Assembly (NCBI RefSeq): GCF_002260845.1
Contig: NZ_BEDT01000001.1
Span: 682,001 to 746,000, forward strand
DNA: 64,000 bases
Source of the DNA: Pseudolactococcus reticulitermitis
Lineage (GTDB): Bacteria; Bacillota; Bacilli; Lactobacillales; Streptococcaceae
Direction: 5' to 3'
Positions 33,478-44,682 of this stretch are shown here, one piece after another. A program made the position numbers and the translations under genes. A model generated the notes under the pieces. The model searched no databases, had not been told where the DNA came from, and saw only the letters and a program-made list of their open reading frames with translations. Each line of letters starts with the position of its first letter. Within the stretch, counting starts at the first letter, position 1.

Positions 33478-33530
33478 AAAAAGACTGTGAACAGATGCCC
33501 TGACTTATCGGGGGTGTTCACAGTCTTTTT
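33478..33530 (+). terminator. Terminator after CLC gene; resembles the one at 42449
   Basis: AAAAAGACTGTGAACA (33478-) pairs with TGTTCACAGTCTTTTT, with a 20-base interior. A closely related sequence stands at 42449-42502, at the other side of the 33.5-42.3 kb operon. Confidence 0.85.
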
Positions 33531-33538
33531 GAGTGAGC

Positions 33539-34729
33539 TCAATCTATCGGCATTAACAAAAAGCTTGACAGAAAATAAAGGATAGCGAAAATAAGCAAGG
33601 TTTTAATGCCACCTAGCGCAAAAAATAAAATCGAAACTAATCCAGGTCCAAGGACACTACTCAGTCCTGTCCCCATATTTAAAACAGACACACCGATTGC
33701 CTTATCACCAGATATCATATGAGGTATCAAGGCAGATAATGGTCCATATCCCGCTAGTCCAATCCCAAAAAGAATGAAGGCAGCAAAGACAACTGGCAGC
33801 GACTGTGTCAAATAGAGCGACCATAAAATCAATAAGCATGCCATACCAGTGAGCGGACCGCCAACATACATCACTGTTCTTTTCCAACCTAATTGATCAG
33901 AAAGATACCCAAATAGGACACCAGCTAAGGTATTAGCAATGAAAGTCACGCTCCATACCGCACCCCACGTCACTATGCTTCTCCCTTGCGCTTGAAAAAT
34001 GATTGGCATCATAATCACAAAACCAAATTGTCCAATCGTATTGATGATTTTCGCACCTAACGCTAAACATAATTTGGGCTGCTTTTGATAAATCACTAAA
34101 CCAGCCCATAGTTCTGATAATAATTTTGGGTTTTTCTTACCTTTTATCTGAAAACTGGTCTTTCCAACACGCAGCATCAATAAAGCCCCAAGTACACCGA
34201 TAGCCGTCGCAACATAAAACAATTGACTGATGCCCATCATTTTTAAAAGCATAGATGACAAGACTGGCCCGATAATTGTCATTCCTAAATTAAAGGCCAA
34301 CCAAAAATAAGCGGTCACTTTTCCTAATTGATAGGGTGCTGTTGTGACAATGACAAGTGTCAAGGTCGCATAGGCAAATAAGGGGTAGACCATCCCCTTA
34401 AGCGTATAAACAATCAGCAGAAGAATGGCAATATGTTGCTGCAGACTGTAAAGTATCCCAAGCGTTGTCACGATTAATGCTAGTGATGCTACACCGAACA
34501 TCTTTTTCGACCCAAATCTGATGGTTAAAAAACTGCATAGCCATGAACATATGGCAACGATTAAGCCATTCATCAGCATCATCTGCCTGATAAATAGGTC
34601 TGAATAGCCTTCCGATAATAAAAATGAAGAAAGCCAACTGTTTTCAATGGTTGCGCCAATCATGAATAGGGTTAAAGACAAAAAGGGCAGCATGTTTTGA
34701 TAGCTTTTAGGCTTGCTAATAGTTTTCAT
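33539..34729 (-). CDS. MFS transporter in the PTS/oxidoreductase operon
   Basis: The 396-residue protein has about 12 hydrophobic segments and MFS-type spacing, e.g. GYLSDQLGWKRTVMYVGG as a loop motif in the second half. It lies last in the operon and overlaps the Gfo/Idh gene by 4 bases (ATGA). It could import the same substrate, or export a product or by-product of the pathway. Its substrate is not readable. Confidence 0.85.
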   Translation of the reverse strand: MKTISKPKSYQNMLPFLSLTLFMIGATIENSWLSSFLLSEGYSDLFIRQMMLMNGLIVAICSWLCSFLTIRFGSKKMFGVASLALIVTTLGILYSLQQHIAILLLIVYTLKGMVYPLFAYATLTLVIVTTAPYQLGKVTAYFWLAFNLGMTIIGPVLSSMLLKMMGISQLFYVATAIGVLGALLMLRVGKTSFQIKGKKNPKLLSELWAGLVIYQKQPKLCLALGAKIINTIGQFGFVIMMPIIFQAQGRSIVTWGAVWSVTFIANTLAGVLFGYLSDQLGWKRTVMYVGGPLTGMACLLILWSLYLTQSLPVVFAAFILFGIGLAGYGPLSALIPHMISGDKAIGVSVLNMGTGLSSVLGPGLVSILFFALGGIKTLLIFAILYFLSSFLLMPID

Positions 34730-35751
34730 ACAATCGGTTCTTTTGGATCAACAGGCACCGCTTTTCCTGTTTGAATAGATGCTATGGCAGCCATCGCCAC
34801 ACGTTGAGCCATCACAACATCAAGCGGTGTCGCAGCAAATGGTTGACCTGTCACAAGATTTGAGACAAAGTCAATGATTTCTTGACGATAGGCTTGCTGA
34901 TAGCGGTCATTGAAAATGGGCAGGGGCTTATCTAATAGCGTTGCTTTAGAGGTATAGTGTTCGACAGTAGAATTTGAAACATTCTCAGCTTTTAACATGC
35001 CTTTTGAACCAAATACTTCGACACGTTGGTCATAGCCGTAAACTGCTCTTCTTGAATTATCAATGAGGGCAAACCCGCCATTTTCAAACTTCAAAACAAG
35101 GGCAAGCGTATCAATGTCATTAATTTCAGATAGCGTTGGATCGATTAAAGTGGCGCCATTTGCAAAAACTTCAGTCACATTGCTGTGCATCATATACCGT
35201 GCCATATCAAAATCATGCATGGTAAAATCAAAAATCAAGCCACCAATACGTTGAATCAGAGCATGAGAAAGCAAATCTGGATCCCTAGACGTAATTTTGA
35301 CAATCTGTGGTTCACCAACCTCACCCTTTTCAACCTTTTCCCAAATCGTCCTAAACTGATGGTCTAAGCGCCTATTAAAACCGATAGCCATCCGCACACC
35401 ATTTTCTTTCACGCTTTGCATCACGGTAAGTGAATCTGCTTCTTGACCCGTCATACTTAGAGGTTTTTCACAAAAAATATGCTTCTTAGCCTGCGCTGCT
35501 GCTAAACAAATGGCCTCATGTGTATCTGTAGATGTAAAAATAAAGACTGCCTCAATTTGTGGCACTGCTAGCAGCTCATGATAATCTTTAAAAGTTTGTT
35601 CAATTCCTGCCTCATGAAGTTTTTCTTGCACGTTTTCAATCAAAACATCTGCGACTGCAACAAGCTCAATGGTGTTGAGCGTTAACATATTTTCAATATG
35701 CATCATACCTGCGCGTCCTGCACCGATAACCCCCACTTTTACATTCTTCAT
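34726..35751 (-). CDS. Gfo/Idh/MocA family NAD(P)-dependent oxidoreductase
   Basis: The 341-residue protein has the N-terminal Rossmann motif KVGVIGAGRAGMMHIENM and the EKPLS motif (IFCEKPLSMT) whose Lys is catalytic. The C-terminal alpha/beta domain contains FDFTMHDFDMARYM, fitting the DxxxHD/R-type substrate site of inositol dehydrogenases. Relatives oxidise inositol, sugars or sugar phosphates at C2 or C3, or act in oxidation-elimination glycoside cleavage. In this operon it has a TIM-barrel isomerase as a neighbour. An AGGAGG site precedes it. Confidence 0.9.
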   Translation of the reverse strand: MKNVKVGVIGAGRAGMMHIENMLTLNTIELVAVADVLIENVQEKLHEAGIEQTFKDYHELLAVPQIEAVFIFTSTDTHEAICLAAAQAKKHIFCEKPLSMTGQEADSLTVMQSVKENGVRMAIGFNRRLDHQFRTIWEKVEKGEVGEPQIVKITSRDPDLLSHALIQRIGGLIFDFTMHDFDMARYMMHSNVTEVFANGATLIDPTLSEINDIDTLALVLKFENGGFALIDNSRRAVYGYDQRVEVFGSKGMLKAENVSNSTVEHYTSKATLLDKPLPIFNDRYQQAYRQEIIDFVSNLVTGQPFAATPLDVVMAQRVAMAAIASIQTGKAVPVDPKEPIV

Positions 35752-35793
35752 ATTGTTTTCCTCCTAATTTTTATTGACATGACCATTTTTAAG

Positions 35794-35818
35794 AAAAACT
35801 GAGACAACTAGGTCCCAG
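35794..35818 (-). terminator. Terminator-like hairpin within the operon
   Basis: On the minus strand CTGGGAC and GTCTCAG (one mismatch) pair around CTAGTT, followed by T5. It lies between the isomerase stop and the Gfo/Idh gene, so downstream genes may be partly terminated or separately promoted. Confidence 0.5.
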
Positions 35819-35831
35819 CTCATCCTTTACT

Positions 35832-36614
35832 TTAAATTTCTGATTCTAAGGAAACGAGATAGTCAAAGCCTTTTTTCATACTCTCAAACATCCCAATTTT
35901 GGAATAATCTTGTTCGATACAATAGTACTCAACACCATTTTTTTCGCCCCATGCGACAACAGCTTTCATATCAACTTCACCATAACCAACTTCCGTTAAG
36001 CTATTTGCCATGTCTTCCTTGTCAAAACCACTGAGGTAATCTTTCAAATGGAGAATTGGTGCACGACCGTTATATTTTTCCAGCGCAGACATGACATCTT
36101 CTCCTGCTAATGTCATCCAATAGGTATCTGGTTCTGCGTAAATACCCATGTTATACTCTAAGTCTGTGATGAAGGTCATGACATTTCGCCCATCAATTTG
36201 ATTGACATAATCATATTCTGGATTATGTAAACCAATGCGATAGCCTTGACCAGAAAGTGTTTGAGCTGCTTTGATAAGGGCTGCCTTAGTTTTACGGTAG
36301 CCCGCTTCATTTTGATCCTCATCATCAATATATTTATCGTAAATCGTTCGACAATCAAACAAGTCACATTCATGGACAATACCCTCTAAATCATTCATGA
36401 ATCGGTCATGTTTAATGTGCATCCCCGCAATTTTAAAGTCATATTTTTTGATTAGTCTTGCAATTTCAAGCGGGTCATGCCCACGCATGCCATCTATCTG
36501 AACAGCTTCAAATCCTATTTCTTTTAAAGTTTTCAAAACATTTTCAGGATCTGCTTCAAATTCTTTACGCAAAGAATATAATTGTGCTGCGATTTTCTTT
36601 CTCAATGCTGCCAT
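35832..36614 (-). CDS. Sugar phosphate isomerase/epimerase-like TIM-barrel protein
   Basis: The 260-residue protein fits the AP-endonuclease-2/xylose-isomerase-like TIM barrel (IolE, IolI, DTE families): QIDGMRGHDPLEIARLIK, GMHIKHDRF, HNPEYDY, a Glu/His metal set around APILHLKDYL and YGEVDMKAVVAWGEKNGVEYYCIEQDYSK. It starts at the ATG at 36614, rather than the extension to 36671, since AGGGG precedes it and the upstream AKR stop lies 5 bases away. Such proteins isomerise or cleave keto sugars after oxidation by a Gfo/Idh enzyme, which is the next gene. Confidence 0.85.
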   Translation of the reverse strand: MAALRKKIAAQLYSLRKEFEADPENVLKTLKEIGFEAVQIDGMRGHDPLEIARLIKKYDFKIAGMHIKHDRFMNDLEGIVHECDLFDCRTIYDKYIDDEDQNEAGYRKTKAALIKAAQTLSGQGYRIGLHNPEYDYVNQIDGRNVMTFITDLEYNMGIYAEPDTYWMTLAGEDVMSALEKYNGRAPILHLKDYLSGFDKEDMANSLTEVGYGEVDMKAVVAWGEKNGVEYYCIEQDYSKIGMFESMKKGFDYLVSLESEI

Positions 36615-36618
36615 CTGT

Positions 36619-37602
36619 TTATGCCCCTTTCCATGAGTTTGACCGAAGATCCAACCATGCCATTTGTTCATTAGTCAATTTAATCGTCGTTGCTTCAATA
36701 GATGATAACATTTCTTCAGCATTTTCTGAACCAATGATAGCCGCAACTGGAAAATCATAGTTTAAAACAAAGGCTAAGGAAAGTTGAATAGGTGTGATAC
36801 CAAGTTCTTTTGATAGCACATTCACACGTTCATAACGCTGCCAATTTTCATCAATATAGTAAGCATTGACCATATCTTCATCAGTTCTGTCCTCAGGTGT
36901 AAAACGTCCTGAGAAGAAACCGCCTGCTTGAGATGACCAAGAAAATAATGGCAGACCTGTTTGTCTATGCCAGTCAATCATAGCATCATTGGCAGAGACA
37001 CAATCTGGCCATCTAGGTTCTAACGTTTTGGCAAGGCTTAAGTTGGGACTATTTAAACTAATCGTGTTCAAACCATGCGTTTCACAATAAGCCATAGCTT
37101 CCTGAATACGAGGAAGTTCCCAATTCGAAACACCAAAGGCATAGGCACGACCACTTTCGACGACTTCATGCAATTTCTCCATGATTGGTCCAACTGGTTG
37201 CGTTTCATCATCACGATGTAACAAAAGCATTTCGACATGATCTGTTCGGAGCAAAGATAAACTAGTTGTCAAATCTTCTTCAATCGCTTCTGGTATGACC
37301 CGTGGGACATCAAGCGCACCACGAACTGGATGACAACATTTTGTTAGGATATTGATCGCATCGCGATTGCCTTCTTTCTCCATCCAAACGCCCAAGGCAT
37401 TTTCACTATGACGATAATGGCGACCTGTGTCAAAGGTATTACCACCCAAAGCTAGAAATTGCTTCATGACCGGCCCTGCCACCTCAAGGTTATCTTCACG
37501 GAAAAAATCTCCTGAGCCCATGATAATATTTGAACAAGGCATATCAATGGCTTGTCCATCTTTCTTGCCCTTTACGATAATATTTTGTGTTAATTTTGTC
37601 AT
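36619..37602 (-). CDS. Aldo/keto reductase
   Basis: The 327-residue protein has the AKR barrel: NTFDTGRHYRHSENALG (catalytic Asp/Tyr region; GRHYxxSE), HVEMLLLHRDD, a GVSNWELPRI segment and a late AAIIGSENAEEM nucleotide site. It reduces or oxidises a carbonyl on a sugar-like substrate with NAD(P)H. Context in a PTS operon suggests a role in the oxidative processing of a phosphorylated sugar. Overlap is absent; the next gene begins 5 bases later. Confidence 0.87.
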   Translation of the reverse strand: MTKLTQNIIVKGKKDGQAIDMPCSNIIMGSGDFFREDNLEVAGPVMKQFLALGGNTFDTGRHYRHSENALGVWMEKEGNRDAINILTKCCHPVRGALDVPRVIPEAIEEDLTTSLSLLRTDHVEMLLLHRDDETQPVGPIMEKLHEVVESGRAYAFGVSNWELPRIQEAMAYCETHGLNTISLNSPNLSLAKTLEPRWPDCVSANDAMIDWHRQTGLPLFSWSSQAGGFFSGRFTPEDRTDEDMVNAYYIDENWQRYERVNVLSKELGITPIQLSLAFVLNYDFPVAAIIGSENAEEMLSSIEATTIKLTNEQMAWLDLRSNSWKGA

Positions 37603-37606
37603 TTGA

Positions 37607-38335
37607 TTAATCCTCTACTAGTTCTCCTGCTGCTGCATCGACATAAAAATTCGTCTCATTCACTGATTTTTTAAGTATTGTTGACGGAATTTGGCGTGTC
37701 ATATCAGAAGCCATTGTTTGCTTCACAATTTCACGTTTTTTCTCACCAGTTGCCATGAGAACAAGATGCTTTGTTTGAAGTATTTGACCAAAGCCTAATG
37801 TCATCCCTTGTGTTAGAGGCAAGTCGTCATCAAAGTATTTTGACATCACTGTCGTTGTCACCGTGTCTAAATCAATGACATGTGTCATCAAGTCGTCACC
37901 AACGCCTGGCTCATTAAACCCGATATGACCATTCATACCGATGCCAAGCAACATATAATCAATCCCATACTGTTCAACAAAAGCATCTGTTTTATCAATT
38001 TCTTCTTGCAAATTAGCGTTGTCACCCTGAAAGAAATGAATATGCGCTTCTGGAATAGCCAATGGGTGATAGAGATTGTCATAGAGCGTTTGACGCGTAC
38101 TCCCTTTCGTATCATACCCTAAGCCCACCCATTCATCTAAGCCAAGAAATTGAACTTTTGAAAAATCAATACTGCCATTTCGCTTTAGGTCAACCAACCG
38201 CTTCATAACCGGCAAAGGCGTATCTCCTCCAGCAATACAAATGACGGCATCTGTTTTTTGAGCGACTAGTGCTTGAATTTCATCTCCTATTTGCCCAACA
38301 ATCGCTGCCGTATCTTTAAATTTGGTTAATCTCAT
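37607..38335 (-). CDS. Glucosamine/galactosamine-6-phosphate deaminase-isomerase family (NagB/AgaI-like)
   Basis: The 242-residue protein has ICIAGGDTPLPVMKRL (phosphate loop), GLDEWVGLG (catalytic Asp), and LGIGMNGHIGFNEPG with catalytic His and Glu. These are the family motifs shared by NagB, AgaI and phosphogluconolactonase-like members. The LDEW motif, against LDEY in NagB, is what I recall from AgaI. The Asn in the second motif is normal in Gram-positives. It probably converts an amino-sugar-6-phosphate, or a related 2-substituted hexose phosphate, in the ring-opened form. Its presence suggests an amino-sugar moiety in the substrate. Confidence 0.87.
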   Translation of the reverse strand: MRLTKFKDTAAIVGQIGDEIQALVAQKTDAVICIAGGDTPLPVMKRLVDLKRNGSIDFSKVQFLGLDEWVGLGYDTKGSTRQTLYDNLYHPLAIPEAHIHFFQGDNANLQEEIDKTDAFVEQYGIDYMLLGIGMNGHIGFNEPGVGDDLMTHVIDLDTVTTTVMSKYFDDDLPLTQGMTLGFGQILQTKHLVLMATGEKKREIVKQTMASDMTRQIPSTILKKSVNETNFYVDAAAGELVED

Positions 38336-38376
38336 CTCACTTTTACTCCTCTATTTGAACTTCAGTATCATCGCCC

Positions 38377-39678
38377 TTAAAAATCTAAGTTTAATTCTGA
38401 TAGAAGCGCATTTTCTTCAGCAGCTGCCGCATTACTTTTCTTCATTTCACTTGTTTCGTACATTTTGAAGAAGGGGTAATACATTAAAACGCCTAATGCT
38501 AATACGAGTGCCGCTAAGATCGGCGCCTTCCAATCCATGGTTGCCAAATAATTCGCTAGAAATATTGGTGTCCCACCAACATTTGCTACAGGTGCTCTTA
38601 CGATACCATAATGGAAAATAAACCATTCCGCCGTTGCAATAATGGGGGTACCAAATACAAATGGGATAAAGAGATAAGGGTTAAAACAAATCGGTAAGCC
38701 AAACACGATAGGTTCACTAATTGAGAAAATCATCGGCACAACTGATACTTTACCAATTGCTTTAAGTTCTGCCGATTTACTAAACAAGGCTAATAAAACA
38801 AGAGCGCCAGTAAAGCCAGACCCTGTGAAAGCCATAAAATAGTCCCAGAAATTCGGTGCAAAGACATGGGATACAGGCTCACCCGATTGAAAAGCAGTCA
38901 TATTTTCTGCTAAATATTGGGTCATAAATGGCATGACAAATCCAACCAGTATAGCATAACCATTCAAGCCAATGAACCAGAAGAGCATTTCAAGCAAACT
39001 AATCACGAAGACAGCTGTAGGTGTGTCAATACTATTCATGGCTGGTGCCAAGAATGTTGTCAAGACTTCTGGAATCGCCTTGCCGCCAGAGCCAATAGAA
39101 ACCGTTACGGATAGGGCTACTGATCCAACTAATATCGTTAATAAGGGGGCAATCGACTCAAAAGTTGCTGCTACCATTTCTGGCAGACCTTTAATTCTTA
39201 TCGTTAATTTTTTCTTAACAAATAAATTCAGCACTTCAACTGAAATAAGGGCACTAAAAATAGCGATAAATAGCCCTCTAGAATCTAAGTAACCAACTTG
39301 AAAATTACCATCTACCATTTGACAATCTAAAACAAGCGTCGTAATGGCTGCGCCAATCATACTTTGTAAAATAGGTGCTTCCAGTTGATGCGCATGCGCA
39401 TAAGATATCGTTAAGGCTGCATAAAGCGATAAAAGGCCAAAGGTAAAGTTAAATGGCAATTGTAGAATCGCAGCATTTTGAATGAAAAACTCTTTAACCA
39501 CTGTTCCATTAGGAAAAAGATTACCGATTGATGAGATAATCAAAGTGAATGAGCCGATAATCAGTACAGCAATCAAGCTCACCATCCCATTTTTGATAGA
39601 GGAGATAAACCGATTTTTCTCTACTTTTGACGCAATCGGCGAAAATCTATTCTCCATAAAATCCATAAATTTATTCAT
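38377..39678 (-). CDS. PTS system lactose/cellobiose-type EIIC permease
   Basis: The 433-residue protein has about 10 membrane segments and the Lac/Cel EIIC pattern: MNKFMDFMENRFSPIASKVE amphipathic start, then NGMVSLIAVLIIGSF, a VFVISLLEMLFWFIGLNGYA segment and a C-terminal NPYLFIPFVFGTPII motif. It imports and phosphorylates a beta-glycoside or aminosugar disaccharide class of sugars. It stands between EIIB and the NagB-like gene. The operon lacks the usual 6-phospho-beta-glycosidase. Confidence 0.92.
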   Translation of the reverse strand: MNKFMDFMENRFSPIASKVEKNRFISSIKNGMVSLIAVLIIGSFTLIISSIGNLFPNGTVVKEFFIQNAAILQLPFNFTFGLLSLYAALTISYAHAHQLEAPILQSMIGAAITTLVLDCQMVDGNFQVGYLDSRGLFIAIFSALISVEVLNLFVKKKLTIRIKGLPEMVAATFESIAPLLTILVGSVALSVTVSIGSGGKAIPEVLTTFLAPAMNSIDTPTAVFVISLLEMLFWFIGLNGYAILVGFVMPFMTQYLAENMTAFQSGEPVSHVFAPNFWDYFMAFTGSGFTGALVLLALFSKSAELKAIGKVSVVPMIFSISEPIVFGLPICFNPYLFIPFVFGTPIIATAEWFIFHYGIVRAPVANVGGTPIFLANYLATMDWKAPILAALVLALGVLMYYPFFKMYETSEMKKSNAAAAEENALLSELNLDF

Positions 39679-39698
39679 GATGTTTCCTCTCCCACTCT

Positions 39699-40040
39699 CT
39701 ATACCTCTGGTTTCAATTTCATCAAAATGGCCGCTTTCAAAATGTTGCCACCATTGACCGCACCATAATCACGTGAGTTAATCACTTCGATGGGTTTATT
39801 GAATTGGGCTGCAACTTCTGTTAAAGCATTCAATTGATGTTTCATTTGTGGCCCAACCATCACCACATCAAAGTCTTCAATATACTCTTTTAATTCTCCA
39901 GCAGGATGGGCTTCAATTTTAATGTCGACATCTTTTAAAGACTGTGAATTTTCAGCAACTTCTTTCATTTTTGTAACCATAATGCCTGTTGAATAGCCTA
40001 AATTGCAGACTAACAAGACGTGTAATTTATCCAATGCCAT
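39699..40040 (-). CDS. PTS system lactose/cellobiose-type EIIB
   Basis: The 113-residue domain begins MALDKLHVLLVCNLGYSTGI, with Cys12 in the CNLGYSTG phosphocysteine loop. Length and fold fit Lac/Cel EIIB. It receives phosphate from EIIA and passes it to the incoming sugar. Confidence 0.92.
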   Translation of the reverse strand: MALDKLHVLLVCNLGYSTGIMVTKMKEVAENSQSLKDVDIKIEAHPAGELKEYIEDFDVVMVGPQMKHQLNALTEVAAQFNKPIEVINSRDYGAVNGGNILKAAILMKLKPEV

Positions 40041-40043
40041 AAG

Positions 40044-40385
40044 TCATTCTCCTAATTTTTCTAATTTTGCTTCTAGTTGATTGATTCTATCGTTTAATGC
40101 GATCATTTCATTGACAAAAGTTTCTGCTAAAACTGTATTCATCAGCGTATCCTGTGCATGAATGAGTAAGACATTTACATCTGTTTTTTCACCGTTTGCA
40201 TCAGCCACTAACAAAGAGGTCTGCGCATTGTGCGCGTCATTCAGCAACGCTTTGCCTTCTTGCACTAGTGCATGTGCTTGCGTCATCTCACATTTTTTAG
40301 ACGCTTCCATCGCTTCGAATAATTTCCCCATTGCATCTCCTGCAATTGAAATTAATTGAAATGAAACTACTTCACTATTAGCCAT
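40044..40385 (-). CDS. PTS system lactose/cellobiose-type EIIA
   Basis: The 113-residue trimeric-type domain has the phosphorylated His76 in LLIHAQDTLMNT. A coiled-coil C-terminus (about residues 90-113) fits the family. It is the first PTS gene after the regulator; the gap of 24 bases fits an operon. Confidence 0.92.
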   Translation of the reverse strand: MANSEVVSFQLISIAGDAMGKLFEAMEASKKCEMTQAHALVQEGKALLNDAHNAQTSLLVADANGEKTDVNVLLIHAQDTLMNTVLAETFVNEMIALNDRINQLEAKLEKLGE

Positions 40386-40409
40386 TACTTATTTTCCTTT
40401 TTCTATAAA

Positions 40410-42323
40410 CTAACCGATGTGTTCGGATAATGATGAAAAATCATCGATATTTTTGAATTGATAAATCATCTCGATTGCTTTCTTACTTTCGACAATGCTA
40501 TATAAATCTGATAAGATCCCATTAATTTTATGATGATCTTTTTGCGCAATACACAATACAATAATCATTTTGACAGCATGTTTGCCCCAAAAGATAGGCT
40601 TGTGATTCCTAATAAAGAAAATCCCTGTTTTATTAACAAAAGCTGGATTGCCATGAGGTATCGAAACACCTGTCGGCAAGTCTGTCGAGATATCTGGATC
40701 ATTCTCTCGTTCTAAGATATCTTGGACAAACTCATCTGATACAAAGCCATTATGAATTAAATTTCTTGAAATTTCCTCTAATGCCTGATTCTTATTCAGA
40801 TACTGTTTATCCATGATTTGGATTGAATTAGGCGTAGAACTGTACAAGGCCATAAAATGCTTAACTGTAAAGGACTTCATTTGTTTCGAAGCAACTGCTT
40901 TCCGATTAAATAACGTGTAAAGATTACTGATATCTTCCGCATTTAATACATCTGAAACAACCTGTACCTCAACATCATCACTGGCAAATGGTACCGTCGA
41001 GATTACAAAATCATATTGTGTTAGGTCCTTATATTTGAGTTGTGAAATGGCTGAAACTTCCATTGTATCTAGCGAAGGGAGCAATTGATTTAATTTGTTC
41101 ACGAGTAATTGCGACGTTGCCAAACCTGTCGGACAAACGACTAAGATTTTGTTCGCAATATGATTTCTTTCCAAGGCAGATTGGATATAGATTGCGAGAA
41201 ATCCGACTTCATTATCATTAAAGGCAAGGCACATTGCCCTCTCTAATTCCGTCACCACAAGCCAAACTGCTGAAAAAGTTATGGGATACTCAACTTTAAT
41301 CTGCTCTAAAAATGGATTTTCGATCACTTCTCTGATTTGCAATCGTGAAAGCAAAGCTGGAAAATGTTTGCTTAAAGCTTCCTTTAATCCTCCATCTTCT
41401 TTGAGTTCAACACCCAAGCACTGCTCCATTTTGTCAATAAATGTTGCGACCAAATTAGGAATATCTCCGCCTTCATACTGTTCATGTGCAGCACCTAATT
41501 TATTATTTGATAGATAAGTTTCAAATCGTCGCATATCTGTACTAGAAAATTCAATCCCCATCCTTTCAGTGACTGACACCAACAATGTATTGCAGGCATC
41601 AAATGAAACATCAACTTCTCCTTGAGGGTGATATCCCTTAGAGGCACGGTAGACTAAGATAATAAAAACATTTAAAGCTTCTGCCATATAGATATCTGCT
41701 ATCTCTATGGTATAGCTTTTTACATGCTCGTAAAGAATTTCCCAGCATGTCTCGACAATCTCCCTACCATAGTATTTTGAGAGTGTTTTTAATTTCTCTT
41801 CAAAATTTATGTCTAAATTTTGGTCATGTATTCGACAGATAAATTTGTTAAAAGTGAGAAAAGTATTTTGTAATTGTGTTTCACTGCCGACAATTTTTGT
41901 GCCTTGAAAACTGCCGATTAGCTCTGCACCATTTTTCTTAAAAAATGTTTGCTTTAAAAATAGCAAGTCATTCTTAATCGAGGACTTACTCACAAGAAAC
42001 AACTCTGATAAAACTTCATAAGTCACTGTTTGTTCTTGAAACAGCAACATATCCATCATGTCAAATCGCCTAGCAAAAACTGAACTATCCTCACTCGGCA
42101 TTACACTAATCAGACCTCTCTTTTTCAGTCTAACACCTACACCAGCCTTAGAAATAAATTCAAAATCACCATTTTGAAGCAATTCATCTCGAATCCGACT
42201 AATGTCGTTGGATACTGTTCTAATAGAAACATTTAATTTTTGAGAAATAAATTCTTTTGTTAAAAATTTATTTGCTTTTTCAAGAAGCAAAACCAACTCG
42301 AGTTGTCTTTTATTTAACATCAT
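40410..42323 (-). CDS. PRD-containing transcriptional activator/antiterminator (LicR/MtlR type)
   Basis: The 637-residue regulator begins with an HTH (LNKRQLELVLLLEKANKFLT, then SQKLNVSIRTVSNDISRI) and has two PRD domains carrying His residues, an EIIB-like domain with Cys in KILVVCPTGLATSQL, and a C-terminal EIIA-like domain with GVSIPHGNPAF. This order is that of LicR/MtlR activators, not BglG antiterminators. PTS phosphorylation of the PRD and EII domains would tune it with sugar supply. It lies upstream of the PTS genes on the same strand and probably activates its own operon. A cre-like site precedes it. Confidence 0.9.
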   Translation of the reverse strand: MMLNKRQLELVLLLEKANKFLTKEFISQKLNVSIRTVSNDISRIRDELLQNGDFEFISKAGVGVRLKKRGLISVMPSEDSSVFARRFDMMDMLLFQEQTVTYEVLSELFLVSKSSIKNDLLFLKQTFFKKNGAELIGSFQGTKIVGSETQLQNTFLTFNKFICRIHDQNLDINFEEKLKTLSKYYGREIVETCWEILYEHVKSYTIEIADIYMAEALNVFIILVYRASKGYHPQGEVDVSFDACNTLLVSVTERMGIEFSSTDMRRFETYLSNNKLGAAHEQYEGGDIPNLVATFIDKMEQCLGVELKEDGGLKEALSKHFPALLSRLQIREVIENPFLEQIKVEYPITFSAVWLVVTELERAMCLAFNDNEVGFLAIYIQSALERNHIANKILVVCPTGLATSQLLVNKLNQLLPSLDTMEVSAISQLKYKDLTQYDFVISTVPFASDDVEVQVVSDVLNAEDISNLYTLFNRKAVASKQMKSFTVKHFMALYSSTPNSIQIMDKQYLNKNQALEEISRNLIHNGFVSDEFVQDILERENDPDISTDLPTGVSIPHGNPAFVNKTGIFFIRNHKPIFWGKHAVKMIIVLCIAQKDHHKINGILSDLYSIVESKKAIEMIYQFKNIDDFSSLSEHIG

Positions 42324-42342
42324 CGCTTTCTCCTATAGTTTA

Positions 42343-42406
42343 TGTAAGCGGTACCATTCCTTACACATCTAAGTTTACACTATTTAGATAGGCAAGGCTA
42401 TGACAA
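42343..42406 (-). promoter_or_regulatory. Promoter and cre-like site upstream of the PRD regulator
   Basis: TTGTCA (42401-42406) and TAGTGT (42377-42382), 18 bases apart on the minus strand. TGTAAGCGGTACCA (42343-42356) matches cre at 13 of 14 positions and would lie about 15 bases after the predicted start, the usual place for CcpA roadblock repression. Confidence 0.6.
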
Positions 42407-42448
42407 AAAAGTGCCTGAAGTTTCAGCCTTATTTATCTCATTCATGCA

Positions 42449-42502
42449 AAAAACTGTGAACGGATGCCCAGATTTACCGGCATCATTCACAGACTTTTTG
42501 AG
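42449..42502. terminator. Terminator-like hairpin related to 33478-33530
   Basis: CTGTGAACGGATGCC pairs with GGCATCATTCACAG, followed by ACTTTTT. The bases between 42453 and 42502 match 33483-33530 closely (shared CTGTGAACRGATGCCC and CACAGNCTTTTTGAGNGA). Confidence 0.8.
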
Positions 42503-42506
42503 GGAT

Positions 42507-42545
42507 AAAAAAATCATATCGGCTTTAAAACCGACATGATTTTCT
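42507..42545. terminator. Terminator downstream of the type III glutamine synthetase gene
   Basis: AAAATCAT-TCGG pairs with CCGA-ATGATTTT around CTTTAAAA, flanked by A and T tracts. On the minus strand it is about 30 bases after the stop codon at 42574. Confidence 0.75.
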
Positions 42546-42573
42546 ACTTTTTAGAGCAATATAGTCACATTGC

Positions 42574-44682
42574 TTAAACTTCAAACAACAAATCACCATA
42601 AGATGGCATTGGCCATGCTTCTTTATCAACAATCATTTCTAATTTGTCGACTGGTGCGCGGAGGGCATCCATGGCTTTAAAGACAACTTCATTGTAGAAA
42701 CGAGCTTGTACTTTACCTTCTGCTTGTTGTGTCGCTTCTGAGGTTACTTGCTCAAGATTAGAAAGTGCTGCTTTGGCTTCTTTCAGTAATTCTGAAACTT
42801 CTTTCAAGATACCTGCTTGAACAGCTGCATCACAGCCTGCCGCTTTAACGGCAAGCACAGTGTCTGCCAATGATTTGGTATATTTGATGACAGCGGGGAT
42901 GATTTGCTTGGTCGCCATGTCAATCATGGTAAGAGCTTCGATGTTGATAACCTTACCATAATTTTCATACTTCACTTCTTCACGCGCTTTTAATTCCGTC
43001 GGTGACAAGACACCGTACTTGTTAAACAAGGCGATAACATCGGCATCTCCCAAGACTTCAGTGGCATCAACCATTGTCTTGAGATTTGGTAAGCCACGTT
43101 TTTCAGCTTCAACGACCCACTCATCAGAGTAGCCATCGCCATTGAAGATAATCCGTTTGTGTGCTTTGGCGTATTCTGCAATCAACGCATCAACTGCTGT
43201 CTCAAAATCATCTGCTTGCGCCAAACGTTCTGACGCATCATCAAAGGCTTCCGCGACAATCGTATTCAAGACAATATTTGGTGACGCGATAGAGTCACGT
43301 GAGCCAACCATACGGAACTCGAACTTGTTACCTGTGAAGGCAAATGGTGATGTCCGATTACGGTCAGTCGCATCTTTCGAAATATCACGAAGGGCAGCAG
43401 AACCCGTCGCCAAGACGCCACCTTTAATAGAGGTTGCAGCTGAGCCACTCGCCACGTATTGATCCATGATGTCTTCTAATTGCGAACCAAGGAAGATTGA
43501 GATGATAGCTGGTGGCGCTTCGTTGGCACCTAAACGATGGTCATTACCTGGGTCAGCAGCTGATTCACGGAGCAAGCCAGCGTATTTATCCACTGCTTTG
43601 ATGATACACGCCAAAACTAACAAGAACTGTTTGTTTTCGTGTGGTCGTGAGCCTGGTTCGAGCAAGTTTTCACCCATATCCGTCACGAGCGACCAGTTAT
43701 TATGTTTACCAGAACCATTGACACCGGCAAATGGTTTTTCATGCAGGAGACATTTCATGTCATGACGACAAGCAATGCGTTTCAAGGTTTGCATGACCAC
43801 TTGGTTTTGGTCAACGGCAACATTGGCATTGGCATAAATTGGCGCAATTTCATGTTGAGCTGGTGCGACTTCGTTATGCTGTGTTTTTGACGTCACACCC
43901 GTTTTCCAAAGTTCTTCATTGACTTCTTTCATAAAGCCAGCGACACGTTGGCGGATGGTGCCAAAGTAATGGTCATCCAATTCTTGACCTTTGGGTGCTG
44001 CAGCACCAAATAAAGTACGACCAGCGTAGATTAAGTCTTTACGTTTTAGGAAGGTGTCTTCATCGACCAAGAAATACTCTTGTTCCGCCCCAACAGAAGG
44101 TGCGACGCGAGTCGCAGTCGTATTGCCAAATAGGCGAAGCAATTTAATAGATGCATCAGAAATCACTTGCATAGAGCGGAGCAAGGGCGCTTTTTGGTCC
44201 AATGCTTCACCGTTATAAGAATAAAATGCCGTTGGAATCAAAAGTGTTGTGCCCGCCGCATCATGACGAACGAATACTGGAGAAGTCGTATCCCAAACCG
44301 TATAGCCACGCGCTTCAAAGGTCGCACGCAGACCACCTGATGGGAATGATGAGCCATCTGGTTCGCCTTTAATCAATTCTTTACCAGAAAAGGCCGTCAA
44401 AACACTCCCATCTGCTTTAGGTGCTGTGATGAAAGAATCTTGTTTTTCAGCTGTGACGCCTGTCAAGGGTTGGAACAAATGCGCAAAGTGTGTTGCACCC
44501 TTGCCAATCGCCCATTCTCTGATTTCATTTGCGATGACATCTGCTGTCGCAAGATCCAGATCTTTGCCTTCTTCAATTGATTTTTTAAATTGTTTGTAAA
44601 TGCTCTTAGGCAAACGTTGCTGCATGACTGCATCCGTGAAAACATCTTCAGCAAAGATTTCCGGAATATTGACTTTCTCCAT
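42574..44682 (-). CDS. glnN: Glutamine synthetase type III
   Basis: The 702-residue protein is far longer than GSI and fits GSIII: N-terminal FAEDVFTDAVMQQRLPKSIY, the PAQHEIAPIYANANVAVDQN segment, a FAGVNGSGKHNNWSL catalytic segment, and GANEAPPAIISIF. It makes glutamine from glutamate and ammonia. A GlnR box lies 26 bases before its ATG, so nitrogen control is expected. It is next to glnA, but on its own transcript with a separate promoter. Confidence 0.95.
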   Translation of the reverse strand: MEKVNIPEIFAEDVFTDAVMQQRLPKSIYKQFKKSIEEGKDLDLATADVIANEIREWAIGKGATHFAHLFQPLTGVTAEKQDSFITAPKADGSVLTAFSGKELIKGEPDGSSFPSGGLRATFEARGYTVWDTTSPVFVRHDAAGTTLLIPTAFYSYNGEALDQKAPLLRSMQVISDASIKLLRLFGNTTATRVAPSVGAEQEYFLVDEDTFLKRKDLIYAGRTLFGAAAPKGQELDDHYFGTIRQRVAGFMKEVNEELWKTGVTSKTQHNEVAPAQHEIAPIYANANVAVDQNQVVMQTLKRIACRHDMKCLLHEKPFAGVNGSGKHNNWSLVTDMGENLLEPGSRPHENKQFLLVLACIIKAVDKYAGLLRESAADPGNDHRLGANEAPPAIISIFLGSQLEDIMDQYVASGSAATSIKGGVLATGSAALRDISKDATDRNRTSPFAFTGNKFEFRMVGSRDSIASPNIVLNTIVAEAFDDASERLAQADDFETAVDALIAEYAKAHKRIIFNGDGYSDEWVVEAEKRGLPNLKTMVDATEVLGDADVIALFNKYGVLSPTELKAREEVKYENYGKVINIEALTMIDMATKQIIPAVIKYTKSLADTVLAVKAAGCDAAVQAGILKEVSELLKEAKAALSNLEQVTSEATQQAEGKVQARFYNEVVFKAMDALRAPVDKLEMIVDKEAWPMPSYGDLLFEV

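Follow-up and report, generated by a model that had tools for sequence, protein, structure and literature searches.

How the sugar imported by a lactose/cellobiose (Lac/Cel)-type phosphotransferase system (PTS) could be processed where no glycosidase accompanies it is the question raised by a nine-gene block of Pseudolactococcus reticulitermitis, which occupies the minus strand at positions 33539..42323 of the window, i.e., the whole stretch of DNA analyzed here (64,000 nucleotides; positions 682,001 to 746,000 of contig NZ_BEDT01000001.1, assembly GCF_002260845.1). An earlier note on this DNA had read the block as a regulator, EIIA, EIIB, EIIC, a NagB-like deaminase, an aldo/keto reductase (AKR), a TIM-barrel protein (TIM), a Gfo/Idh oxidoreductase, and an MFS carrier, and the open reading frame (ORF) coordinates, together with the Pfam and NCBIfam assignments, bear out all nine genes in that order. 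Cleavage by elimination instead of hydrolysis, as had been proposed, is plausible; the enzyme pairing and the substrate, however, had to be changed. The constant pair is AKR and TIM, and we give close to an even chance to the reading that this pair acts on an amino-sugar glycoside of inositol and, in most relatives, feeds IolD.

The pairing rests on gene neighborhoods. A search for TIM in 395 genomes of the order returned matches in 32, of which 27, including the window's, reach at least 54% identity; the five matches at approximately 28-31% identity were counted as genomes without TIM. At all 27 close loci (L009-L035; approximately 1.5 kb on each side of the TIM gene), the same-strand neighbor of the TIM gene (35832..36614 in the window) is an AKR gene (36619..37602; PF00248), and the pair recurs in 16/16 longer named loci (L039-L054) from Listeria, Vagococcus, Enterococcus, Streptococcus, and Erysipelothrix, whose genomes are partly the same as the 27. 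Gfo/Idh is missing from 26 of the 27 short loci, the window being the exception, and no relative of it was found in the 16 long loci within the stretches examined; because of its absence from the other close loci, the earlier notion of Gfo/Idh and TIM as the core cleaving unit was rejected, and the window's own Gfo/Idh is of the IolG type. In Listeria loci L045-L052, regulator, EIIA, EIIB, EIIC, NagB, AKR, and TIM follow in this order unless a contig end cuts the run (in L045 and L047, the regulator is broken into two ORFs), the full-length EIIC proteins being 66-67% identical to that of the window, which adds IolG and MFS to this set. In Listeria kieliensis, a 664-aa ORF (L053:6305-8299) matches both regulator and EIIC, and EIIA and EIIB gave no match; the PTS part looks decayed, and this genome (G183) has IolE and IolG over their cut-offs.

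A wider TIM search of 398 Bacillota genomes yielded 19 genomes other than the window's own, and of the eight that were examined, G499 alone carries, next to TIM, an AKR related to that of the window. Distant TIM paralogues (approximately 30% identity, or 144-166 bits) stand near Gfo/Idh in L036-L038 and in the seven non-G499 stretches of L126-L132, which is the usual oxidoreductase-TIM arrangement and differs from AKR-TIM. Next to one such paralogue, in G546, lies a 403-aa ORF (L129:10544-11755) that by eye resembles another type of aldo/keto reductase; at 1e-5 it does not match the AKR of the window.

Upstream of the pair, EIIA (40044..40385; PF02255, 92.1 bits), EIIB (39699..40040; PF02302, 52.1 bits), and EIIC (38377..39678; PF02378, 132 bits) all exceed the cut-offs of these Lac/Cel PTS family models, EIIC scoring 228.5 against a cut-off of 236 for lacE (TIGR00410), and are headed by a LicR/MtlR-type PTS-controlled regulator (40410..42323; HTH_11, PRD, IIB, EIIA_2). 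The same EIIA, EIIB, and EIIC families and a LicR-type regulator serve the Lac/Cel PTS operons for cellobiose, chitobiose, and lactose, but the window has AKR-TIM in place of their 6-phosphoglycosidase. That no such enzyme is linked to the operon, as the earlier note had claimed, holds more widely: GH1 gave no match in any operon locus fetched (none lies in the block, and eight GH1 genes lie elsewhere in the window's genome), and GH4 occurs near an AKR-TIM operon only in Vagococcus, past a divergent gene. In Vagococcus allomyrinae, this GH4 belongs to a second cluster adjoining the AKR-TIM operon (L039:12231-15742), together with another NagB-like protein and another EIIC; the divergent gene between the two is RpiR-like in look.

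Two further neighbors of the AKR-TIM pair were seen in other genera. A 194-aa protein without a Pfam match (u194; L040:13873-14457, L085:15526-16110) has relatives at 44-77 bits in those AKR-TIM operons of Streptococcus and G263 that include ABC genes, and a calcineurin-like phosphoesterase gene, divergent from AKR-TIM in Streptococcus (L041:7638-8510), Enterococcus (L086:1214-2089), and G263 (L094:18483-19484), might serve in the removal of inositol phosphate.

The case for elimination comes from the TIM protein itself, a proposed lyase releasing glucosamine 6-phosphate (GlcN6P). It has a xylose-isomerase-like TIM-barrel fold, with a weak Pfam match (AP_endonuc_2, 24.1 bits against a cut-off of 31.1); its best solved sequence relative is AtOGE (8bvk), a proven glycoside beta-eliminase, at 23-24% identity, and the top Foldseek match of its model is a 3-keto-glucoside lyase. 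The metal ligands of AtOGE, listed as His132, Asp163, His189, and Glu233 in the excerpt available of its report (PMC10628242), align with H130, D163, H189, and E234, which are invariant in 13/13 sequences. The barrel is common to AtOGE and the AL1/BT1 3-keto-beta-glucopyranoside-1,2-lyases, and an oxidoreductase partner and glycoside cleavage without a hydrolase are further points of likeness to AtOGE; the window's protein differs in its AKR partner, its usual PTS linkage, and a probable oxidation on inositol rather than at sugar C3. IolE has the same fold, and its metal-site motifs align, although the TIM protein scores 23.7 against a cut-off of 290 bits for the IolE model TIGR04379. The AKR, here proposed to oxidize the inositol moiety, retains D58, Y63, K88, and H129 in 13/13 sequences, corresponding to the D-Y-K-H catalytic tetrad of aldo/keto reductases. 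Its structure model (pLDDT 88.8) matches general AKRs among the best 50 matches listed, with no substrate hint, and IolS (1pyf) is the seventh sequence match of the AKR.

The amino-sugar part of the substrate, which the earlier note had suspected, is supported by the NagB/AgaI-like deaminase paralogue (37607..38335; PF01182), whose alignment with solved NagB shows intact catalytic motifs: D67, E68, N135, H137, and E142 (motifs DE, NGH, NEP) are invariant in 9/9 sequences. The protein scores 134 against the TIGR00502 cut-off of 236.9, and a second NagB of the same genome (G000:C1:153757-154464) scores 235.2 bits. The link to inositol, through IolB, IolC, and IolD, had gone unnoticed. In Erysipelothrix urinaevulpis (L054), EIIA-EIIB-EIIC-NagB-AKR-TIM-regulator-IolB-IolA-transaldolase-like-IolD form one run, with IolB and IolD over their cut-offs and IolA under (409.5 against 448.5); in this genome, IolE has no match and IolG stays below the cut-off (best 181 bits). 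The transaldolase-like protein (L054:15013-16080) may stand in for later steps, no IolC having been seen in the run. Enterococcus sp. MJM12 (G120), with no IolE over the cut-off, carries AKR-TIM-SBP-permease-permease-u194-regulator-EIIA-EIIB-EIIC-YitT-GH38-PepC-IolB-IolC-IolD-FeADH-GNAT-GH125, likewise in one run. The iol cluster of genome G046 (L089), whose TIM gene has the same place as that of Listeria cossartiae (L046), comprises IolA, IolB, IolC, and IolD.

Beyond such linkage, Iol enzymes were counted across genomes as scores over the family cut-offs. IolD is present in 58 of the 395 genomes, namely in 23/27 with TIM versus 35/368 without (Fisher p 1e-17); the association holds within the 25 listed genomes of Listeria (g8; 18/18 versus 2/7, p 4e-4) and outside this genus (5/9 versus 33/361, p 8e-4). 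Absence of IolE was set as a test before the search, which covered the 62 genomes having TIM or IolD: IolE is present in all 35 IolD genomes without TIM versus five of the 23 with both TIM and IolD (p 7e-11), and in none of the four with TIM and no IolD. In Listeria, 17 of the 18 genomes with TIM have IolD without IolE. Given this co-occurrence of TIM with IolD and the absence of IolE, the AKR-TIM pair is the probable source of the IolD substrate in genomes that lack IolE, most Listeria among them, and the same inositol link makes oxidation on the inositol ring likelier than oxidation at sugar C3.

Mannosidase genes form a further context. GH38 genes stand beside AKR-TIM in Vagococcus and Enterococcus (both with GH125), in Streptococcus (L041-L044), in G263, and, outside the order, in G499, where the run (L125) reads GH125-GH38-kinase-ABC-TIM-AKR, the kinase and the binding protein being labeled by eye. 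Taken with NagB, the PTS, and the Iol enzymes, this linkage suggests a mannosylated glucosamine-inositol. The core of glycosylphosphatidylinositol (GPI) anchors, the lipids that hold many proteins at cell surfaces, is Man-alpha-1,2-Man-alpha-1,6-Man-alpha-1,4-GlcN-alpha-1,6-inositol and fits that description, and fungal GlcN-alpha-1,2-inositol phosphoceramides are another such compound. That the island breaks down an amino-sugar glycoside of inositol, likeliest glucosaminyl-(alpha-1,6)-myo-inositol as the GPI-anchor core after mannose removal, is a reading we hold just short of evenly balanced.

On this proposal, the Lac/Cel PTS would import glucosaminyl-inositol and phosphorylate its glucosamine at C6, after which the AKR would oxidize an inositol hydroxyl (C2 for the D-6 linkage) and the metal-dependent TIM protein would eliminate GlcN6P from the beta carbon, in analogy to the loss of water from inosose in the IolE reaction; NagB would then convert GlcN6P to fructose 6-phosphate and ammonia, and the trihydroxycyclohexanedione would pass to IolD and the later steps where these are present (most Listeria, Enterococcus MJM12, Erysipelothrix). 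With a D-6 glycosyl-myo-inositol oxidized at C2, elimination across C1-C6 would free the sugar and leave the enol of trihydroxycyclohexane-1,2-dione. IolD belongs to a D-series route whose product is 5-deoxy-D-glucuronate, and when the twelve possible combinations of linkage and ketone in glycosyl-myo-inositol were enumerated geometrically, three gave this D-series: D-6 with a C2 ketone, D-2 with C4, and D-3 with C1. The D-1, D-4, and D-5 linkages do not give it, and a mycothiol-type (D-1) linkage was rejected on this ground. The GPI linkage, oxidized at the usual carbon of IolG, would thus yield the ordinary substrate of IolD and dispense with IolE, in keeping with the observed pattern. More tentatively, and with somewhat less than an even chance, we envisage a pathway of Gram-positive bacteria, Listeria included, for using the glucosaminyl-inositol core of GPI anchors or of fungal inositol glycolipids as a nutrient, in which oxidation and elimination both take place on the inositol ring and not on the sugar.

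Several observations weigh against this reading. The enumeration allows the D-2 and D-3 linkages besides D-6. The catalytic base of AtOGE, His134 in the excerpt of its report, is replaced by Pro132 in the TIM protein (invariant in 13/13), so the chemistry cannot be identical to that of AtOGE. AKR-TIM occurs without a PTS in the examined stretches of Streptococcus acidominimus (L044) and G499; the operons of Streptococcus, Enterococcus, and G263 lack NagB, each genome having another NagB, and the EIIC proteins of these operons are only distantly related to that of the window (167-207 bits). Five of the 27 TIM-positive genomes have IolE, and four, namely the window's own, G344, G187, and G263, have no IolD over the cut-off. 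Since Listeria supplies most of the TIM-positive genomes, the counts fall well short of independence, the combination of TIM and IolD without IolE being found in three lineages (Listeria, Enterococcus, and Erysipelothrix). IolG (TIGR04380) is a weaker marker than IolE: it exceeds the cut-off in 29/35 IolD genomes without TIM versus 3/23 with both, and in 0/18 with TIM and IolD and no IolE, yet several Listeriaceae having IolE also lack an IolG over the cut-off, and many Listeria carry a Gfo/Idh at 185-195 bits, so that an inositol dehydrogenase of another type is possible. Lastly, GH38 is present in 39/41 genomes and is uninformative as a genome-wide marker; only its linkage counts.

Other explanations have to be weighed against these data. 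AKR and TIM could be a second inositol dehydrogenase and inosose dehydratase that act on free inositol in place of IolG and IolE, with an unlinked glycosidase splitting the PTS product or with an unrelated PTS substrate. This appears unlikely: the pair mostly shares a run with a PTS and never with GH1 in the loci fetched, its TIM member falls far under the IolE cut-off and has a glycoside-cleaving enzyme as its closest solved sequence relative, and Listeria is not known to use free inositol. A classical 3-keto route, wherein the AKR oxidizes the phospho-sugar at C3, the TIM protein eliminates the C1 aglycone (inositol, GlcNAc, or another), and a reductase restores the sugar, would follow AtOGE, which acts in this manner on 3-keto-glucosides, and AL1, a 3-keto-glucoside lyase by its title; Gfo/Idh is a candidate for the reductase in the window. 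Nevertheless, the freed inositol would require a dehydrogenase and IolE before IolD, and 18 of the 23 genomes with TIM and IolD have no IolE over the cut-off; moreover, Pro replaces the catalytic His of AtOGE, and a second oxidoreductase was not seen in most operons, which makes this route somewhat less probable again.

The adjoining GH38 and GH125 genes of several lineages could instead point to host N-glycans, whose trimming by such enzymes would leave Man-beta-1,4-GlcNAc (or its 6-phosphate) as the substrate, and the excerpt available of a paper on N-glycan use by Streptococcus pneumoniae names both families (PMC5215778). This we consider improbable, as it leaves unexplained the IolB/IolC/IolD run of Enterococcus, the IolB-IolA-IolD of Erysipelothrix, and the co-occurrence with IolD; in addition, no deacetylase (NagA) is among the labeled genes, no search aimed at NagA having been made. 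Least probable, and very much so, is an ordinary PTS operon whose NagB, AKR, and epimerase-type TIM protein carry out amino-sugar/ketose isomerization, the iol links being accidental: the solved TIM barrels matching the model do include several 3-epimerases, but the two one-run iol linkages, the pattern of IolE replacement, and the co-occurrence within Listeria all speak against it.

The two genes that the window adds suggest another fate for the cyclitol. Its Gfo/Idh (34726..35751; GFO_IDH_MocA) exceeds the cut-off of the inositol 2-dehydrogenase model TIGR04380 (369.6 against 355) and matches the solved structures 3ezy (E 7.3e-85) and 4hkt, the latter named inositol 2-dehydrogenase (E 2e-58). 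DgpA (7xr9, E 5e-21) is a distant relative; DgpA/DgpB-C cleavage of C-glycosides also proceeds by oxidation and then elimination, but the window's protein stands much closer to inositol dehydrogenases and is not a conserved companion of TIM. Among the loci examined, IolG lies beside an AKR-TIM operon only in the window and in G263 (L094), where the order is AKR-TIM-ABC-REG-EIIABC-YitT-like-GH38-IolG-MFS_1_like; the G263 protein (349.4 against 355) is 56% identical to the window's and is the closest IolG met. Both genomes lack an IolD over the cut-off, and given this absence in the window's genome, IolG and the MFS carrier (33539..34729; MFS_1, nearest the RbtT/DalT/CsbX group, TIGR00897 282.3 against 375) were assigned a role in cyclitol disposal: the dehydrogenase would reduce the released cyclitol, which the carrier probably exports, the carrier itself being proposed as a cyclitol importer or exporter. 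Streptococcus G344 and G187, which have TIM and no IolD over the cut-off, had no match to IolG at the search threshold.

The nine genes probably form a catabolic island gained by horizontal transfer and inserted as one block. TIM is found in one of the 12 genomes of the genus and the neighboring ClC gene in all 12. In nine of the 11 congeners, the block is absent from the same site, a glutamine synthetase III gene following the ClC gene within approximately 1.1 kb with no match to the operon genes tested; seven of these nine were also seen in longer stretches, and in the other two congeners, G799 (contig end) and G797, the stretch does not show the site. The G+C content of the block is 0.35-0.41 (nine 1-kb rows, 34000-42999) versus mostly 0.40-0.51 in the flanks, and two 58-bp palindromic repeats, 79% alike, bound it downstream (33479..33536) and upstream (42448..42505, neither with an assigned strand). 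Given the empty congener site, the low G+C, and the repeats, the nine genes, with IolG and MFS among them, were probably acquired together. At the empty site, two of the closest congeners (L145 and L146) each carry a single match to the repeat. The flanking repeats resemble hairpins, yet are absent from the terminator scan list.

Compared with the Bacillus subtilis-type IolG-IolE-IolD-IolB-IolC-IolA pathway, the proposed route would share the IolD substrate and all later steps, but its TIM protein fails the IolE model, its AKR is not IolG, a glycoside enters, and an amino sugar is released. The operon in Listeria is presumably lmo0873-lmo0879. Expression tables, in the excerpts available, list lmo0874-lmo0876 as PTS subunits (PMC9927151; PMC10580955), and lmo0877/lmo0878 appear in the available portions of published gene lists. 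A large survey of iol clusters reports, in its available excerpt, that at least 97% of L. monocytogenes are iol-positive by a three-of-four-genes rule and ascribes missing core iol genes to incomplete sequence, assembly errors, and frameshifts; the IolE gap of Listeria is not discussed in that excerpt (PMC9430895). The open-access papers searched include none on the catabolism of glucosaminyl-inositol or on what this operon does. If the proposal is correct, a single step would cut the glycoside and make the IolD substrate, which would explain why iolABCD is kept without iolE and would close the pathway hole left by IolD without IolE in most of the Listeria genomes searched. Elimination on the inositol ring would join the few known hydrolase-free ways of cutting glycosides, and GPI glycans would become a host-derived bacterial nutrient, a use not found described in the open-access literature searched.

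Minor features of the block complete its description. A cre-like catabolite-control motif, ATGTAAGCGGTACCA (42342..42356, plus strand), lies upstream of the regulator gene; as the window holds three matches versus 1.92 expected by chance, a count that is not significant, this single match was rejected as a signal. The TIM and IolG genes are separated by 80 bases (35752..35831, minus strand) containing a weak terminator-like hairpin (z -1.59; 11/200 shuffles fold equally well), which is missing from the terminator scan list and was not retained as a terminator. Of the ATGA overlaps and short gaps described in the earlier note, the short gaps stand (3-41 bases, apart from the 80), while the only true ATGA overlap is that between the Gfo/Idh and MFS genes (34726-34729). 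The TIM gene probably starts at 36614, with an ATG four bases past the AKR stop, rather than at 36671.

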